From: an uncultured Porphyromonadaceae bacterium
GTDB lineage: Bacteria > Bacteroidota > Bacteroidia > Bacteroidales > Muribaculaceae
Direction: 5' to 3'
Length of the DNA: 20,256 nucleotides
Assembly: GCA_947176545.1 (NCBI GenBank)
Contig: CAMWRB010000005.1
Span: 1-20,256, forward strand
The notes beneath the pieces were generated by a model. The model searched no databases. It was given only the letters and a program-made list of their open reading frames with translations, and was not told the DNA's origin. Of this stretch, positions 12,175 through 20,256 are shown one piece after another (position 1 is the stretch's first letter; each line of letters starts with the position of its first letter). A program made the translations under genes and the position numbers.

Positions 12175-13944
12175 GTGTTAAAGAAAAATATTATTAAACA
12201 GATTGTGTTGTTGATAGTCGCAACTATCTGTACGTCGGGTGCATTCGCGCAACGCGAAAAGAACTACATATATTTGTTTGATTGCACAGGGTCAATGATA
12301 AAGAACGGGTTATGGGAACCTGCACAATCCGCTTTAGACAACAACATAATGTTGCGGTCATCCATTCCGGGGTCCCGCTTTACAATAATACCGTTCGGTA
12401 ATAACCCATATGAAGTATTTACCTTTAACAACGGAGATTACGCAGCAAATAAGCAAAACCTTGACAATGCGTTTGAAAAATATATAAATCAAGCGAAATA
12501 CACCAACATCTCAGATGTTCTCAAATCCGGATTCAGTCTGGTGGATTCCAAAAAGGATAATGAGATATATCTTTTTACTGACGGGATGCCGAATAATACA
12601 GATTCGCCACAAAGGGTTGCTCAAACTATCAGAGAATGGTGCGCACATCACCGTAACACCAAATTATATTATGTCGCTTTAACCGAGGGTGTCATCAATC
12701 CGGTAATAAAGCAAGCAATCGATGAATGCTCGGATGCAGCTATCGTGCAGTGCGAAAATGGTGTAATTCCGGTAATCACTTCCATTTCCAATGATGTTTA
12801 TACCAACTTAGAGGAATTGGACAGAGGGGTGGAGACATCGTTCAGCATTCCGGGCGACTATAATTTATCTGCAGAATCAAAGGATAATTATTTCGAGGCC
12901 CACATAGCGGGCGGTAAAGCGAGGGATGGTAAATTCACATTAAAAATATCGTCAAAAGAGAACCTGACTACAGACCAATTGCATGAACTCCTGCAGGGTG
13001 GAGAATATGAATTTCCAATTACAGTCCGTAGTTTAGATGAGCGGTTTACAATAGTAAATCCGATTGTCAATGTGCATGTCTCGGACGAGGTTCCGTCGAA
13101 ATTGATTTTGGCAGATGGAGTCGATGAGGTAGTGACAGATGGTGTCAAGTGGTATGATTCGTTTCTTTGGAGCAGCGCAGCTGATGATAAAAAGGTCATA
13201 TGGGATTTAGAGCCTGTGTTCAAAAACGAACTGAGAAATTCCGCTCTTTCACTCAAGTTCAATAAAGGAGAAGGTGAATCGGATGATTTTCAGGCTTGGT
13301 TTAATGGTGAAGCTATAAGAGATGGCCAAACTGTTACGCTCCGTCCAGGCGTACCGGCATTGTTGGAATTACGTTTTAATCACGATGCCACCACCGGTAA
13401 ACGTTATTTCTCTCTGACACCTGCAGGGATTGAGAGTCTCGATTTTATAAACGATACTCCTGCGGAACAGTACCGTGGGACATCGCTCCGTACGGAGTAT
13501 AATGTGGTATGGAATCCGCTCAAAACGTTCTTATGTTGGTTGAGATTCATCTTGCTGGTTGCTTTAATTGTGTGGTTCGCTTTTCTAAAACGAACGATAT
13601 TCCCATCCATTAAATTGAGTAAGATTACAATCACCGGTCCCGGTTCATATTATTCGTCCAAGAAGATAAAAGGCGCTCGTAAAATAATTCTTACAAAAAA
13701 GCGCAAATCGCAAAATATATTTTCCCGAATCTTTACCGGCGAAATCCGGTTTATCAAGGCGGACCATTTCTGCCCCGAATTGTCGATAATTGCAGTCGGA
13801 CGCAAGAAGAAGGTACGCGTTCGTTCCGAAGCAAAATCGCAGAACCCGTGGGAGATTTACCCGACCGTGATTTTCGGACAATACGATAAGGGAACACTGA
13901 CCAATAAGATTTCCAACGACAAATCAGAAATAGAATTCAGTTAA
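12175..13944 (+). CDS. Secreted, membrane-anchored von Willebrand factor A domain protein
   Basis: The 589-residue product starts at GTG 12175 with a signal peptide ending TSGAFAQ near residue 26. A vWA domain begins at once: IYLFDCTGSM supplies a MIDAS-like Asp36-x-Thr38-x-Ser40 (Thr in place of the usual first Ser), Thr110 in KYTNISDVLKSG is a plausible third ligand, and FTDG carries Asp136. Beta-rich extracytoplasmic sequence follows to about 450, then one membrane helix (about 455-474, WLRFILLVALIVWFAFL). A roughly 115-residue basic, beta-rich tail (SKITITGPGSYY to the C-terminus) should face the cytoplasm. The tubulin-like gene starts 29 bases later, so this is probably the membrane anchor or sensor of that system. 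I found no named family for the tail. Composition is AT-richer than the left flank. Confidence 0.85.
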   Translation: MLKKNIIKQIVLLIVATICTSGAFAQREKNYIYLFDCTGSMIKNGLWEPAQSALDNNIMLRSSIPGSRFTIIPFGNNPYEVFTFNNGDYAANKQNLDNAFEKYINQAKYTNISDVLKSGFSLVDSKKDNEIYLFTDGMPNNTDSPQRVAQTIREWCAHHRNTKLYYVALTEGVINPVIKQAIDECSDAAIVQCENGVIPVITSISNDVYTNLEELDRGVETSFSIPGDYNLSAESKDNYFEAHIAGGKARDGKFTLKISSKENLTTDQLHELLQGGEYEFPITVRSLDERFTIVNPIVNVHVSDEVPSKLILADGVDEVVTDGVKWYDSFLWSSAADDKKVIWDLEPVFKNELRNSALSLKFNKGEGESDDFQAWFNGEAIRDGQTVTLRPGVPALLELRFNHDATTGKRYFSLTPAGIESLDFINDTPAEQYRGTSLRTEYNVVWNPLKTFLCWLRFILLVALIVWFAFLKRTIFPSIKLSKITITGPGSYYSSKKIKGARKIILTKKRKSQNIFSRIFTGEIRFIKADHFCPELSIIAVGRKKKVRVRSEAKSQNPWEIYPTVIFGQYDKGTLTNKISNDKSEIEFS

Positions 13945-13973
13945 ATCAAAACAATAATTATCAACATACAACC

Positions 13974-16763
13974 ATGGCAAAACTTAGAAGAACTCTTCTT
14001 ATAGGACTTGGAGGGACCGGTATCAAGGCAATCCTGAATGCTAAAAAAATGTTCTATGAGAATTATGGACAAATACCCCCTATGATTGGATTTATCGGCA
14101 TGGACACCGATAAACCCGGATTGAGCAATGCTTCCGTGACTGCTAATGACGGCACAAAAATCACGCTCAACAAGTCAGAGCAACTATGCATTTCCGTTGA
14201 TGCCCCGACTGCAATCTATACCAACAATCAGTCAAAGAAGTTGTTTGACTGGATGCCGGAATGCAATGTTCAAGGCCTTACGGCACTTTCAATCGGTGCG
14301 GGGCAGATGAGAAGTAACGGCCGGTTTGCCGTGACTGTTAATGAACTTAACGTTAAATCATTCATTAGCAATAAAATCACCGAAATCAACAATGCGTCGA
14401 TAATTGATAATGTAGATTATGACCTACTTGGTTCCGAAACTGAAGTCCACATGGTGTTCTCTTTAGGTGGCGGTACCGGCAGCGGCACGTTCCTTAACAC
14501 AGCCTACCTTATCAAGCGGATGTATCCTACGATTAAATTGTCGGGATACGCGGTGTTGTCCGATGTGTTTCGCAATATGGTCACAGGTGCTATGTCAGCC
14601 CGTGTAAGACCAAATGCCAAAGGGGCCATTATCGACCTTGACTATCTGGCACATCTCACTCCCGATGACACTCCGGTTGAGATTAAATGGCTCCGCGATA
14701 CAGACCGCGTGAACTATCGTCCTTTCGATGCCTTGTATTTTATTGACAACACCAACGAAAACAACGACATGTTCAACCATGTCGACCCATTGTGCGAAAT
14801 GATTGCTCTCGCAATAGTTACATCAGTCGGTGAACTGGGAGTGGCTCTCGCTTCAGTCAGTGACAATGTCAGCAAGTTGATAGCTGACGGTACGATGGAT
14901 ATCAAGAACAAAAAAGCGTGGGTAGCGGGTTTCGGGTGCGCTGAAATTATCTTTGATGGAAAGCGCATTGCAAAGATTTATGCCCGCAAGGCAGTGGCAC
15001 AGCTCATCAACAAGATGCTTAACGGTGGTTGCGATGACCCTGTAACTATCGCCAACAACTGGTTTGACAATGTAAAAATCCGCGAAAACCTCGGCAAAGA
15101 CGATGTCATAGACTACTTTATGACTCCTATGCCGAAGCACATTTTCAGTGACCTTGACGAGCCTCAGAATCCTGAACCCGAGTGTAAGAATTATTTGGCG
15201 AAGGAGGCCGGTGAGCCACAATCCAAACTCGATGAGAGACTGGCTGAGCTTGAGAGCCGTGTCGATGAGGCTCTGACCCGTCTGACAAGTGAACAGGCCA
15301 ACCGTGAATGCGGCATATATCTCTGCCAACAGATTCTAATTTCAATTCTTCATCAAATCGAAATTTGCGACGGTGAGATGAAAGATGAAAAGGAGCACAT
15401 TGATGAAGAGATGCCGCGGTTGGAGGCCGGATTGAAGACTGCCTGCAAGGAATTGGCCGAGTGTATGGGTACGGTCTTCAAACGCAATCGCAAGGACTAT
15501 GAGGCGGAGGTTATTGACCGGACTATGAGACTCGCTGTCGCTCAACGCGAAGTCGTGCGTCGCAAGATGGCCCGTCAATTCTACAGCTGGCTTAAAGAAC
15601 GTGTAAATCAGTCTGTCAATAGGGTCGATATTATTATCAGTAATCTGCAAACCGTCAGAAATGAATGCAATACCGAGGTACAGAAAATATTACGTTCCGA
15701 CGCGGGACGCAGTTTCTTCCAATTCGACCTCTCAGCTGACTATGCCGAAAAAGTGGAGTGCCCGCTGACTGACATCGTGTTTAACGATTTTGCAAAATAT
15801 ATGCAGTCTGACGGGGGTATTTCCTCACTTGCCGCACTCACATCCAAACAGACTGAAGAAACGCTGATGCGTTTCGTTAATACGCTGCCGAAAGTGAATG
15901 AGTATGAAGATATGACAGTAGACGATGCTTTGGATAAACTGTCGGATGATGAACTCAGCAAACTGATTGGCAAAGCAGTCAAGAAGTCACTTCCATTACT
16001 GCCGTTCACGCTTCGTGGCTTTGACGCGGACCTGCGCGAAAGACCTGTCGAATGTTACTATATCGGCATAGCCAATAAGAACCGTTCGCGTCTTACCAAA
16101 GACAATCTGTTCCAGAATATCGTTTCTGATGCCAAAGATATTCAGTTCTCTGAAGTCGGTCTGGACAACCGTGTCATTATTTACCGTCAGTTGGGTGTCG
16201 TACCGGCGTTTACCATTAAAGCGCTTGACAGCTATGAAGCCGAGTATGAACGCTGGGAAAGCGACAAACATGCGGGTTCACATTGGGATAACAATCTTTG
16301 CAAACGCATGGCCGACGAGCGTTTCCAGCTTTCTCCCAAAGATGAACCATCAGCAGCCCATCTGCTGGAAATGTGGATTAATGCCATCATTTTCGGTCTT
16401 ATAAAATTTGATGCAGTATCGAATAAGTACCAAATCAAAAGCCGTGGAATGGGAGGACGTGCTCTCAAAGGATGGTTGGTCGATATGGGCGCTTCCCGTC
16501 AGGAGGCTTTCCGTTATCTCGAAGATAATATCGATGTTCTTGGTCCCGAAATACGTCAGACAATCACAACGATGGATGTTCCCGGTCCTGAAAATCCGAT
16601 ACGAATCCTTTCAGAAAAAGCCGTAAAGGCATGTCAGGACAATACCTATCTTCAGGAAGTTTCGCAATGTCCAATCTCGATTGAAAATATCGAGCACTAT
16701 CCTGCAGAGATGGACTTAATCGAGAAAGAAATTGAATACATTTTAGACAATATCGCACAATAA
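13974..16763 (+). CDS. Large tubulin/FtsZ-superfamily GTPase (Tubulin_2 / FtsZl-like)
   Basis: The 929-residue protein has an N-terminal Rossmann-like GTPase half: LLIGLGGTGIKAI (residues 8-20) as the first nucleotide loop, IGMDTDKPG near 43, and the tubulin signature VFSLGGGTGSGT with the phosphate loop Gly165-Gly171. Further superfamily-like elements are YFIDNTNEN (255-263) and VAGFGCAEIIFDGKRI (317-332). Thus nucleotide binding looks intact. Residues of about 400-560 are strongly helical with coiled-coil heptads, and about 370 more residues follow, so it is more than twice FtsZ length. Makarova and Koonin (2010) described FtsZ-like families linked to vWA proteins and predicted membrane remodelling, which fits the vWA gene just upstream. 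It is not the division FtsZ: length and context differ. The last gene starts directly after its stop codon. Confidence 0.88.
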   Translation: MAKLRRTLLIGLGGTGIKAILNAKKMFYENYGQIPPMIGFIGMDTDKPGLSNASVTANDGTKITLNKSEQLCISVDAPTAIYTNNQSKKLFDWMPECNVQGLTALSIGAGQMRSNGRFAVTVNELNVKSFISNKITEINNASIIDNVDYDLLGSETEVHMVFSLGGGTGSGTFLNTAYLIKRMYPTIKLSGYAVLSDVFRNMVTGAMSARVRPNAKGAIIDLDYLAHLTPDDTPVEIKWLRDTDRVNYRPFDALYFIDNTNENNDMFNHVDPLCEMIALAIVTSVGELGVALASVSDNVSKLIADGTMDIKNKKAWVAGFGCAEIIFDGKRIAKIYARKAVAQLINKMLNGGCDDPVTIANNWFDNVKIRENLGKDDVIDYFMTPMPKHIFSDLDEPQNPEPECKNYLAKEAGEPQSKLDERLAELESRVDEALTRLTSEQANRECGIYLCQQILISILHQIEICDGEMKDEKEHIDEEMPRLEAGLKTACKELAECMGTVFKRNRKDYEAEVIDRTMRLAVAQREVVRRKMARQFYSWLKERVNQSVNRVDIIISNLQTVRNECNTEVQKILRSDAGRSFFQFDLSADYAEKVECPLTDIVFNDFAKYMQSDGGISSLAALTSKQTEETLMRFVNTLPKVNEYEDMTVDDALDKLSDDELSKLIGKAVKKSLPLLPFTLRGFDADLRERPVECYYIGIANKNRSRLTKDNLFQNIVSDAKDIQFSEVGLDNRVIIYRQLGVVPAFTIKALDSYEAEYERWESDKHAGSHWDNNLCKRMADERFQLSPKDEPSAAHLLEMWINAIIFGLIKFDAVSNKYQIKSRGMGGRALKGWLVDMGASRQEAFRYLEDNIDVLGPEIRQTITTMDVPGPENPIRILSEKAVKACQDNTYLQEVSQCPISIENIEHYPAEMDLIEKEIEYILDNIAQ

Positions 16764-19700
16764 ATGTCTTCATCAGTCACTGTCTGGACATCCTCATCAA
16801 CGGCACTATGTCAATCCCGGGTTGCACAAATAGTAAGTGCAGCCCGGGTGGCTGATGCCGCGCATGATACTATTTCACCGACGGGTCTTTCCGTTGATGC
16901 CGTGATTGAAAGCCTCAATAAAGCCTTCAATCGATTGGTTACAATGACGATGTCGGATTCAACCCTGCACATCGTATCTGTAATTCCACTATATGAGGAT
17001 GACGCGGTTAATCAAATTCAAACGATATGCGATGCCTGCTCATTGTTCGAGCATAGTTTCACCTTGCATATCTTAGGATTAGCTCAGGGCATAAGCCATA
17101 TTTTTGAAGCAAAAGTCAATACCCGGAAAGAGAAAGAAGCATTTGAAAAATCGCATATCCTTCTCAAAGACCTCTGCCGGACGTCATCATTCGGACTCTC
17201 ATATTCCATCATCGACGATTACGCGGAGAATGGTGCTCCGATAGGATTCACGATAGAGAGTTTATCCCGCTATATAGCAACCGTTCAGGTCGCATTAATG
17301 CAGGACTATTATAAAATATTGTCACCTGCAATCCTGACAGCTCATCCGGGTGATAATTTGTCAATCGGAATTTCGTCACTATCATTCAACCGCGATTCCG
17401 TTGCACAACAAATGTTAGGGCTTGGATTTCTGGAAGCGCTTGACAACGTAGGTATCAATGACAAGGAGGTCGATGCTCAAAAAGCCGCCCGCGAGGCAGA
17501 GACCTTTTTAGAGGGTATCACAGGGCGGTATCCCAAGTTGTATGAATCCTCAATAAAACCATTATACAAAGACTCAGGTGTAGATGAAGGCAGAGTCGTG
17601 GCAAAGGCATCTCCCATTCTTGATGAAAATCTAAGGAACCTGAAGGAGGAAATTCTCTCACTGCTACATAAGGAGTCGTTGTCATTACCTGAAAGGGAGG
17701 CGGTACTCGCATTAATATTAGGCCGTGATAACGAGAATCTACGCGGGATGCAATATGAACACGAAGGTGCATTGTTGGACGATGCTTGCGAGGTATCTAT
17801 TGACATTTATGTGAAAGCATTCAATCGCTGTTGTAATGATTCAGATTTGCTTCCCAAAAGAGGTGATTTTGAAGCTTTAAAGAAATTTAAGTGGAATGAA
17901 AGCACTAAAGAATTTGAAGAAAGTGCCGAGAATTATGAAGCCTTCAATCCGTTGCATGATATAAAAAGGCTTAAACAGGAAATTATAAATGCCACTTCTT
18001 TTATCCGTGATAAGCAGGATGAGTTGGTGGGTTTGCAAACTTCTGTCCAGCAACGTCAGGATGCCGAAGAAATAAAGAGTAAATGGCATAAACCTAAAGG
18101 TGTTCTGAAAGATGTTGAATATAAGGAACAGCCACTTGACCAACAATACACTCCCTCTCCGGGGCTCAAGATTAAGGAGACGGTAGATTTAAGAAAATTT
18201 TTTACTCCGGTAAAGAATCAGTTGGACCTTGGCTCCTGTACCTCTTTCGCTGCCGTGGCTATGTATGAAGCCATGATGAATATGAAAGGTGTGGAAGGTG
18301 TTATTGACATGAGTCCTGCCTATCTCTACTACTATTCAAATATTCTCAACGGCAGGCCTGCGGGCGGAAGTAATTTCTACGAGCAACTTAAAGTCCTCGG
18401 TACTTATGGTGTCTGCAATCAGAATCTCTACTGTTATGATGCCGATTCTCCGGAGACACCGCCTTCGGAGCAGGCAGATGCAGATGCAAAGAAACACAGA
18501 GTTATCGCTGCAAAACAAATTCCTTTAATAAATGAAATAGATAAGTCCGAAACGATAAAGCAAAACCACAAGATTTTAACAAGCGCACTTTCTGAAGGTT
18601 ATCCGGTGGGTATATCGCTCAAAGTGTATGACAATCTTGGAAAGGGGGGTGCATTCATTCTTCATCCTGAAGATGCGCCTGACGCTATAGAGGAGGGTTG
18701 GCATGCGATGGTGATTGTGGGCTATTCTGAAGAAAATAATTTCTATATCGTCCGAAATTCATGGGGTCATGAGTTTGGTGAAGATGGTTATTGCTATATT
18801 CCTTCAGCCTATATTGATGACCCTGATTACATGGATTTTGCATGTATTATAACCGAGATAAGTGATGGTGCTCAAGGAGGTAAAGGTGAAATTCCAACAG
18901 TTTTAGCAAACTTCGCTGCCAAAGAAACGGAGATTCGCATAGCGGCAATCAGGAATGCTGTCGCAAAGATGCGTATAGAGTTGAAAAACAGTCAAAAATT
19001 ATATGCAGAATACTATAAGTATTATCAAAAGCTTTTAAATCAACTTACAATACCCAAAATACAGAATGACATCCGCTCTGCAGCAGAAATAGCGCAAGCG
19101 ATACGCTCCATAAATGTTGATGAAAGAAAACGCCTGCTTGAAGATACGTTCGTCGGTAAATTGAAAGATTATAAAAATTATCTTAAAAAAATCATTATCG
19201 GTCTTTCTGCCACGTCAATCGGTCTGGGACTTGCCGCCTATTACAGCAGGAGCATCGTAGTTTTTATCTTATTCCTCGTTTTCGCAGCCCTCTGTGTCGC
19301 CACAATCGGAGGATACAAATGGTGGAAGAAAATCAAACGCGACCGACTGCAGGAAGAACTTGAAAAAGTATATGTCGATGCAAAACGTCAGGAGGAGCGG
19401 TTGCTTGAAATGCAAATCCGTTTTCATGTCGCAGGCATGTGGCTGCAACGTTTCCACAAACTGTCAATAGAGATTGGAAATGTGTATGACCGCCTTGTAA
19501 GCTATAATCACATTCTGAGGACTTGGCAGGATTCCTACTCACGTAAAATCGGTGACCCCGAAATCCCGGAGGGACAGATGTTCAGAGTGCTTGATGCGTC
19601 CCCCTTGTTGCAAAGATTTTTCGAGCAGAATAAATCGGCGATAATTAAGGAGGTTAATCTTATTGAACTTTTTGATAATTATAAAGTTAATCCGGACAAT

Positions 19701-20045
19701 ATCGAACAATCCCATCAGCAGATAAAAGACTCGGTCACATCCGTCATCAACAATCTGATGTCAGATTTTAATATGGCGAATTTTTTACTTGGTGATGAGT
19801 TTCCATACCTGAATCAGATAAATATTACAGAGGAATTTGCCGCGTTGCTTAATGTCGGGCAGCCATCGTATCGTAACCGTGCCATGAATGCGACAACGCC
19901 GGTCCGCCTTGTTATGACCAATATCAGTCCGGATAGGGAGAACCAATGGATAAACCGTATCGTCACGTTGTTTCCGATGCGTCCGATAATTTTAAATTCT
20001 TCGGACAGTACGTCGCTTACTCTACTGACAATCCATCCGCAATAA
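16764..20045 (+). CDS. Pseudo-tubulin / papain-like protease / membrane-hairpin protein
   Basis: The 1093-residue protein starts at the ATG touching the tubulin-like stop (TAAATG). Residues of about 40-235 resemble the tubulin-like neighbour in order and spacing (LHIVSVIP 68-75, FTLHILGL 99-106, SIIDDYAEN 148-156, IGISSLSFN 201-209) but lack GGGTGSG. A helical linker leads to a papain-like C1A domain at about 475-705: Gln486, Cys492 in LGSCTSFA, His647 in GWHAMVIVGY and Asn665 in NSWG, a complete triad with the oxyanion Gln. Charged helices, two membrane spans (about 810-828 and 832-854), a coiled coil and a C-terminal domain follow. There is no signal peptide, and a hairpin keeps both ends on one side, so the protease is probably cytoplasmic. 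Substrate unknown; the vWA tail, the tubulin or the protein itself are candidates. Confidence 0.85.
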   Translation: MSSSVTVWTSSSTALCQSRVAQIVSAARVADAAHDTISPTGLSVDAVIESLNKAFNRLVTMTMSDSTLHIVSVIPLYEDDAVNQIQTICDACSLFEHSFTLHILGLAQGISHIFEAKVNTRKEKEAFEKSHILLKDLCRTSSFGLSYSIIDDYAENGAPIGFTIESLSRYIATVQVALMQDYYKILSPAILTAHPGDNLSIGISSLSFNRDSVAQQMLGLGFLEALDNVGINDKEVDAQKAAREAETFLEGITGRYPKLYESSIKPLYKDSGVDEGRVVAKASPILDENLRNLKEEILSLLHKESLSLPEREAVLALILGRDNENLRGMQYEHEGALLDDACEVSIDIYVKAFNRCCNDSDLLPKRGDFEALKKFKWNESTKEFEESAENYEAFNPLHDIKRLKQEIINATSFIRDKQDELVGLQTSVQQRQDAEEIKSKWHKPKGVLKDVEYKEQPLDQQYTPSPGLKIKETVDLRKFFTPVKNQLDLGSCTSFAAVAMYEAMMNMKGVEGVIDMSPAYLYYYSNILNGRPAGGSNFYEQLKVLGTYGVCNQNLYCYDADSPETPPSEQADADAKKHRVIAAKQIPLINEIDKSETIKQNHKILTSALSEGYPVGISLKVYDNLGKGGAFILHPEDAPDAIEEGWHAMVIVGYSEENNFYIVRNSWGHEFGEDGYCYIPSAYIDDPDYMDFACIITEISDGAQGGKGEIPTVLANFAAKETEIRIAAIRNAVAKMRIELKNSQKLYAEYYKYYQKLLNQLTIPKIQNDIRSAAEIAQAIRSINVDERKRLLEDTFVGKLKDYKNYLKKIIIGLSATSIGLGLAAYYSRSIVVFILFLVFAALCVATIGGYKWWKKIKRDRLQEELEKVYVDAKRQEERLLEMQIRFHVAGMWLQRFHKLSIEIGNVYDRLVSYNHILRTWQDSYSRKIGDPEIPEGQMFRVLDASPLLQRFFEQNKSAIIKEVNLIELFDNYKVNPDNIEQSHQQIKDSVTSVINNLMSDFNMANFLLGDEFPYLNQINITEEFAALLNVGQPSYRNRAMNATTPVRLVMTNISPDRENQWINRIVTLFPMRPIILNSSDSTSLTLLTIHPQ

Positions 20046-20055
20046 TCAAGTGGGT

Positions 20056-20244
20056 ATGGAAAAAAAGGTAGAAGGTATGGCCGGTGGGCCTGAGCTTCCG
20101 TACGATACGGGGGGAGTGGAGGCGTTGCTTGCGGGTCCGCGGGTCGAGGGGATTGGCTCGGCCTTTGCGGGGAGGCTCACCGCTCGCTATGGCACCCAAG
20201 CTGCAGAGGAGTTGATGAGACATACCGACACAGCTCTCTCTTAA
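20056..20244 (+). CDS. Short ORF with helix-hairpin-helix-like stretch; possibly a 5' fragment
   Basis: The 62-residue frame starts at ATG 20056 (GTG 20050 is an alternative), ten bases after the protease stop. It is markedly GC-richer than the genes before it. The segment GPRVEGIGSAFAGRLTARYG (residues about 29-48) has the GxGxxxAxxLxxxYG pattern of a helix-hairpin-helix, as in the N-terminal part of RecD2-type helicases and other DNA-binding proteins. It ends after a CTCTCTC run at TAA 20242-20244; a shift there would keep a frame open to the window edge. So it may be a true small protein, or the start of a larger gene broken by a frameshift. A possible ATG for a following gene is at 20251. 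Confidence 0.5.
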   Translation: MEKKVEGMAGGPELPYDTGGVEALLAGPRVEGIGSAFAGRLTARYGTQAAEELMRHTDTALS

Positions 20245-20256
20245 ACACATATGACG

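Follow-up and report, generated by a model that had tools for sequence, protein, structure and literature searches.

A three-gene cassette on a contig of an uncultured Muribaculaceae bacterium (CAMWRB010000005.1, assembly GCA_947176545.1; 20,256 nucleotides, called the window below) encodes a membrane-anchored vWA protein (gene 1), a tubulin-like GTPase of the FtsZl1 type (gene 2), and a membrane-anchored papain-like protease (gene 3). This cassette is a real, recurrent module, with an arrangement far beyond chance. In these gut bacteria it looks like a GTP-controlled protease switch, and we tentatively read it, with a probability of roughly 0.4, as a mobile accessory membrane signalling system in which an envelope cue would act through the tubulin-like GTPase on the protease.

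Recurrence was assessed at loci carrying a full-length relative of gene 2, defined by a match over about 800 or more of its 929 residues. There were 22 such loci: the window, nine from database records, and twelve from other genomes, with the three loci that had been fetched twice counted once. In all 22 the tubulin gene is preceded by a vWA gene and followed directly by another large gene, the third of the cassette. The third gene encodes a papain protease in 19 loci and a protease-free protein, here called X, in three (L106, L108, and L109). The vWA gene is cut at its start in L020, and at the contig edge in L017, where only its last 30 residues are visible; it is split into two genes in L106 and L107 and into two open reading frames (ORFs) in L102, and in L098 it was missed in ORF picking and located by tblastn. 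Contig ends truncate the third gene in L020 and L101. The gap between the vWA and tubulin genes is 1 to 50 bases at loci with both ends present, and that between the tubulin and third genes is -4 to 33 bases in 19 loci and 70 to 113 bases in the other three. The initial annotation of this DNA had named recurrence of all three genes together as what would support the module; this holds throughout for vWA, tubulin, and a third gene, but for the protease in 19 of 22 loci only. It had also named two outcomes that would speak against the module, confinement to a single strain and a tubulin found mostly without its partners; the first is contradicted by the 22 loci and the second, within this clade, by the two partner genes found at every one of them. 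On the gene 2 tree the protease requires one gain or loss only; the deep part of that tree is unsure, with support of 78/69 and two long branches.

Among close relatives, full-length gene 2 was present in 6 of 101 genomes; the counts for the family and the order were 14 of 247 and 3 of 393, the window genome being included each time, and among 395 genomes of the phylum it was the window's own only. The protein of genome G328 (locus L130) aligns more loosely, over model positions 5 to 759.

The coordinates, strand, and Pfam domains of the three genes agree with the initial annotation. The genes are co-directional on the forward strand, at 12175..13944 (gene 1, 589 residues), 13974..16763 (gene 2, 929 residues), and 16764..20045 (gene 3, 1,093 residues), spaced by 29 bases and 0 bases. 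The features it had ascribed to the proteins were likewise recovered, namely a membrane-anchored vWA protein, an intact GGGTGSG loop in a tubulin/FtsZ-superfamily protein, and a papain-like protease with a membrane hairpin. The G+C content of the three genes (0.40 to 0.47) is lower than that across the remaining contig (0.49 to 0.56). Canonical FtsZ is encoded separately in all seven triad genomes tested, that of the window included.

Gene 2 matches Pfam Tubulin_2 (E = 2e-50), with the GTP-binding loop at residues 165 to 171 (14466..14486). Loop glycines G166, G167, G169, and G171 are present in 132 of 132 aligned tubulin rows, as are N259 and N298, and D297 is present in 129; overall, the key GTP-loop residues are kept in 127 to 132 rows, four rows being gapped at the first loop. 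Tubulin chains were not found in the PDB by the gene 2 sequence profile at E values up to 1. In structural comparison, the alignment to the AlphaFold model spans residues 4 to 766, and CetZ, FtsZ, and tubulin chains align from residue 4 to residues 743 to 790. The model indicates that both domains of the FtsZ/tubulin superfamily fold, GTPase and C-terminal, are retained in full by gene 2, split by a helical arm of about 340 residues. According to DSSP and the structural alignment, this coiled-coil arm would occupy approximately residues 350 to 690 (15021..16043) between H9 and S8, and S8-H10-S9-S10, the second half of the tubulin C-terminal domain, residues 693 to 743 (16050..16202); the names of these elements were assigned from their order. 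The modelled protein has helices at residues 416 to 442, 447 to 498, and 506 to 574 and a mostly helical C terminus.

Gene 1 has a signal-peptide-like N terminus, a vWA domain (residues 33 to 172, 12271..12690; Pfam VWA_2, E = 4e-6, and VWA), a further ectodomain, one additional transmembrane (TM) segment, and a tail. The TM segment (residues 453 to 471, 13531..13587) was recognized by hydropathy and keeps its position in the alignment; the tail that follows (residues 472 to 589, about 115 residues, 13588..13941) is conserved and, from the signal peptide and the single TM segment, is probably cytoplasmic. The metal ion-dependent adhesion site (MIDAS) is complete (D36-x-T38-x-S40, T110, and D136), with D36, S40, T110, and D136 invariant in the 12 aligned vWA members; several positions close to the TM segment or past it are invariant too. 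Between the window and L018, the ectodomain beyond the vWA fold (residues 216 to 450) is the fastest-changing part measured, at 47% identity, and the GTPase domain of gene 2 the slowest, at 92%. In L106 (6434-8229) and L107 (6584-8465), the split gene yields one protein that has the vWA domain alone and a signal-peptide-like N terminus, and another that has the TM segment and tail and begins like a lipoprotein, which suggests that sensor and relay can be separate chains.

Gene 3 matches Pfam Peptidase_C1 (E = 2e-19), and its AlphaFold model has a pLDDT (predicted local distance difference test) score of 86.8. An N-terminal alpha/beta frame, as modelled (residues 1 to 434, 16764..18065), precedes the papain domain (residues 472 to 679, 18177..18800). 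The latter holds the Gln, Cys, His, and Asn of a Peptidase C1 active site: Q486, H647, and N665 are invariant in 108 of 108 protease rows and C492 is found in 107. Papain matches dominate the Foldseek and VIA results for gene 3; weak BFVD matches for its other parts (FtsZ, Ras-like, and vWA; E = 0.16 to 0.9) leave the N-terminal fold undecided. Hydropathy peaks at residues 831 to 849, the close relative in L013 has a second peak at 810 to 828, and the predicted helices break at 828/831, which we read as a TM hairpin (approximately residues 808 to 850, 19185..19313) capping a long helical stalk. The model ends with a beta-alpha-beta-beta element (residues 1047 to 1092, 19902..20039). By hydropathy there is no N-terminal hydrophobic segment, and the flanks of the hairpin are, by eye, rich in Lys and Arg, so that both of its ends, and with them the papain domain, would lie in the cytosol. 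In the rows shown, papain proforms align from residue 439 or earlier and mature enzymes from residues 458 to 470, as expected for a latent protease.

The history of the cassette was examined using trees of the three genes, with 12 or 13 members each. The starred forks are identical in all three: the window groups with L013 and then L018, with L020, L098, and L099/L100 outside. Monophyly of genus g1 was rejected (approximately unbiased test, P = 1.4e-4 for gene 2 and 1.6e-4 for gene 3). Less supported forks differ, as gene 2 pairs L017 with L019 (92/99; starred, 95/97, in the 22-row tree) whereas the gene 3 tree separates them (83/88). The genes flanking the triad also vary among loci, and agreeing forks that cross genus lines, together with these differing neighbours, argue for an accessory cassette that moves horizontally. 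Nonsynonymous divergence (dN) between the window and L013 is 0.067 for gene 2, 0.127 for gene 3, and 0.185 for gene 1, with synonymous sites near or at saturation, which indicates strong constraint on all three genes. No clean insertion site was seen at L018: its left-hand genes are unmatched in four triad-free genomes, and its right-hand genes (AsmA, HAD, and DHQ synthase) are kept in three of them, the fourth having been viewed for AsmA only. The contig's cytochrome c assembly gene, considered as a transfer test, matched in 10 of 18 genomes, two of them near full length, and was not used.

A signalling mechanism can be drawn from these parts. The gene order, GTP loops, papain residues, and MIDAS are observed and the tubulin fold is predicted; each arrow between them is conjectural. 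The periplasmic vWA ectodomain would bind an envelope or foreign ligand via its MIDAS, and the TM segment and cytoplasmic tail would relay this state to gene 2. If this tubulin-like protein then assembles at the membrane in a GTP-dependent manner, it might cluster, position, or unlock the stalked gene 3 protease, whose papain domain would sit latent in the cytosol behind a pro-segment-like linker; once unlocked, it could cut cellular or invader proteins. The initial annotation had likewise supposed that a signal read by the vWA protein could pass to a cytoskeletal polymer that positions or switches the protease. This idea fits the anatomy (an external vWA domain with a TM segment and conserved tail, a cytosolic tubulin, and a cytosol-facing protease), but the relay itself stays conjecture. 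Because the distribution is patchy and the cassette moves horizontally, a conflict role, anti-phage or inter-bacterial, is somewhat likelier than housekeeping.

Several observations weigh against a mobile conflict-type cassette. Most Pfam-named neighbours scanned individually look like housekeeping proteins. Among these neighbours, HSP70 adjoins the triad in L013 alone, where an HSP70-TPR protein and then a UvrD-type helicase (L013:16338-19958) lie 265 bases past the triad. Phage records and viral contigs gave no match to the cassette, and plasmid matches are limited to 28%-identical relatives from the Thermus group. The best PADLOC match of the three proteins had an E value of 0.015, which does not place them among known anti-phage defence systems. 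Nor did PADLOC reveal a convincing defence island around the triad among 93 flanking proteins (of 146 listed; at least 110 residues, within 6.5 kb, with L105 to L109 and some others left out). The best 25 of 46 PADLOC families had one or two matches each among these proteins, the strongest being PDC-S27 and PDC-S14, and ten neighbours scanned individually gave one match, an ABC/C39 transporter. The mads matches of L098 trace to that type of transporter, and the GajB-like matches likely come from the UvrD-type helicase adjoining the L013 triad. Finally, the three loci that have X and lack the protease argue that proteolysis is not the constant part of the cassette.

An envelope-stress or surface-quality regulator would use the same relay, with the protease cutting an anti-sigma factor, a membrane protein, or cassette parts in homeostasis. 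This possibility fits almost as well and is nearly as likely as a conflict role, from which it cannot be separated here. The periplasmic vWA domain and the membrane protease are what it calls for, the housekeeping-like neighbours suit it, and a gene for an HtrA-like protease, an envelope-protease type, follows the tubulin gene in a second FtsZl1 lineage (see below); the sparseness of gene 2 among close relatives and in the family, and its movement between genera, are however unlike core stress systems. Less likely, we think, is the membrane-remodelling machine proposed for the FtsZl1 family in 2010 (PMC2875224), in which a polymer would bend or organise the inner membrane and the protease merely process or recycle components. 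Both partners of the tubulin are membrane anchored and its predicted fold looks complete, in keeping with such a machine, but Pfam gave no membrane-shaping domain in any of the three proteins, and the protease is kept in 19 of 22 loci and has nearly invariant active-site residues. The rapid change of the ectodomain could also be that of a substrate or adhesin rather than a sensor, in a system for processing or assembling surface proteins; this we consider improbable, since a papain domain located, as it appears to be, in the cytosol could not reach the vWA ectodomain.

The signalling cassette favoured here has relatives among described systems, and the attribution of vWA plus FtsZ-like pairs to Makarova and Koonin in the initial annotation was correct: FtsZl1 with vWA is described in 2010, its function being predicted only (Makarova and Koonin 2010, PMC2875224). 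The N-terminal FtsZ-like domain with its GGGTGSG loop, central coiled coil, helical C-terminal region, adjoining vWA gene, and canonical FtsZ encoded elsewhere place gene 2 in that family (FtsZl1/Tubulin_2), whose loop reads GGGTG(S/T)G and most of whose operons include a vWA neighbour. The sections seen name kinases, a GTPase, and OmpA proteins as partners and mention no protease, unlike the cassette described here. They also state that T6-H7 and the tubulin C-terminal domain were not confidently identified in FtsZl1, whereas the model of gene 2 places both, with the helical arm inserted between. The paper and its reviews asked whether the parts needed for filaments are present and how a periplasmic vWA domain could talk to a cytosolic FtsZ; the predicted full tubulin fold and the vWA partner with its conserved cytoplasmic tail may bear on both points.

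Neighbourhoods of tubulin, vWA, and GTPase genes were predicted to be conflict systems by Kaur et al. (2020, PMC7159879), a precedent absent from the initial annotation. These GAP1-N2 and DO-GTPase systems share with the cassette a tubulin protein with a coiled-coil or helical extension and a membrane vWA protein. They are, however, defined by GAP1, a GTPase, and FNIII, with the tubulin theme in Firmicutes and Actinobacteria, whereas the cassette, from Bacteroidales, has three genes, one of them encoding a papain protease. By Pfam, gene 2 is the sole GTPase of the triad, and the loci compared share no additional gene family; 25 of 136 neighbour Pfam families were listed, and no search aimed at GAP1 itself was made. 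The HSP70 at L013 recalls the HSP70-linked conflict systems of the same study. vWA systems near CRISPR also include vWA beside tubulin, TM, kinase, and phosphatase proteins (Altae-Tran et al. 2023, PMC10910872), with no papain protease mentioned in the excerpts seen. Xylellain, a C1 protease of Xylella fastidiosa (PDB 3ois), is a 291-residue protein, unlike the papain domain within a 1,093-residue membrane protein found here, and chains of CetZ, of the archaeal tubulin superfamily (PDB 3zid and 4b46), have no room for the arm and C-terminal helical region of gene 2. FtsZl1 with vWA and tubulin-vWA conflict systems are already known, and the papain-bearing third component appears to be the new element. 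In the open-licence literature searched we found no pairing of FtsZl1 with papain, no papain-bearing third component, no alternation with X, no split-tubulin model, no repeated pairing with proteases, and no later experimental work on FtsZl1.

Seventeen other FtsZl1 loci of Bacteroidota, with differing neighbours, were compared, leaving out L025, closely similar to L023, and L027, which has no recognisable tubulin ORF. Gene 3 profiles found no relative at any of the 17, which, with the protease in 19 of 22 triad loci, makes the papain part a local variant. A scan of 71 of the 102 listed neighbour proteins gave, among the best 25 of 42 matching families, vWA (at least three), trypsin-like (at least four), HSP70 (at least two), OmpA (at least one), and kinase (at least one) matches. 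At four loci a trypsin/HtrA-like protease gene lies directly downstream of the tubulin gene (L024:6409-7167, L110:11807-12565, L111:12472-13311, and L114:6901-7725), and as far as can be told these four proteins account for the trypsin matches. All four resemble one another and carry a hydrophobic segment at the N terminus; PDB searches, made for two of them, gave trypsin/HtrA-type proteases. FtsZl1 thus seems to have acquired a membrane protease on at least two occasions, the protease families being unrelated. With a protease of two unrelated families beside the tubulin in two lineages, cleavage offers a readable output for laboratory tests of the family. The more distant L130 (5200-12686) and L131 (355-7751), which are among the 17, show the order vWA, tubulin, and large third gene; the third protein (722 residues in L130, 768 and cut in L131) has no convincing similarity to X or gene 3. 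A third operon type in the same genus (L022, L023, L025, and L026) has a tubulin of about 1,025 residues and conserved neighbour families F5 and F7 to F10, plus a family with a TonB_C/PEGA member.

Protein X (698 to 770 residues) lacks both a papain match in Pfam and a TM hairpin. It forms its own family of at least 99 proteins, compared with at least 95 for the protease family in the same database, both being lower bounds from 8,000 scored candidates. Profile comparisons make it probable that gene 3 and X are related through both their N- and C-terminal parts and share the N-terminal frame in outline. Single comparisons gave P values of 0.0014 to 0.018 for the N-terminal part, where a reversed control reached 0.02, and of 9.6e-5 to 0.0013 for the C-terminal part with the larger X profile; with a three-sequence X profile the C-terminal signal was not found (P = 0.21 to 0.33). 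The N-terminal score of 25.9 was reached by block shuffles (60 shuffles, null 17.2 ± 3.0, maximum 26.8), as was the score of X against gene 2, which is weakly above its null (24.1; null 17.2 ± 3.4, maximum 26.8).

A more speculative and rather doubtful proposal treats gene 3 as a degenerate tubulin that has no GTP loops and pairs with gene 2 as a pseudo-GTPase, with the papain protease and membrane stalk inserted after H9 and before S8. The two might then form a membrane-tethered heteropolymer of tubulin and pseudo-tubulin, with a protease on every second subunit, gated by the extracellular sensor. The register of the three pairwise alignments closes exactly (gene 3 residue 197, X residue 229, and gene 2 residue 316). 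In this register S6, H7, S7, and H9 of the gene 2 model (residues 253-257, 271-285, 317-326, and 329-349) start no more than one residue from elements of the gene 3 model (145-150, 164-185, 199-207, and 210-228), and the C-terminal beta-alpha-beta-beta run of gene 3 has the element order of S8-H10-S9-S10. Register closure and element order in these predicted structures are suggestive of kinship. A pseudo-tubulin is not claimed from profile scores, as the gene 3 N terminus scored 17.2 against gene 2 (null 16.9 ± 2.3, 60 shuffles); a further run with gene 3 rows only repeated the pairwise value, the largest shuffle being 30.3. If the proposal were true, the insertion would fall where gene 2 carries its helical arm, and the cassette would be a protease array clocked by GTP, and protease-free X might represent the ancestral state.

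The window is an entire contig (G000:C5) of an incomplete metagenome-assembled genome (MAG; 60% complete), whose closest records are Bacteroidales and Muribaculaceae MAGs, and sequence 3' of the protease is cut off. Its final 23 bases (20234-20256) match, with three mismatches and no match in 100 shuffles, what we take to be a transposase sequencing adapter. The contig end is therefore probably an artefact, and the same probably holds for the stop of an ORF that begins at 20055. This further co-directional ORF (20055-20233), nine bases past the protease gene and cut by the contig end, looks, by eye, like the helix-hairpin-helix region of RecD-type helicases.

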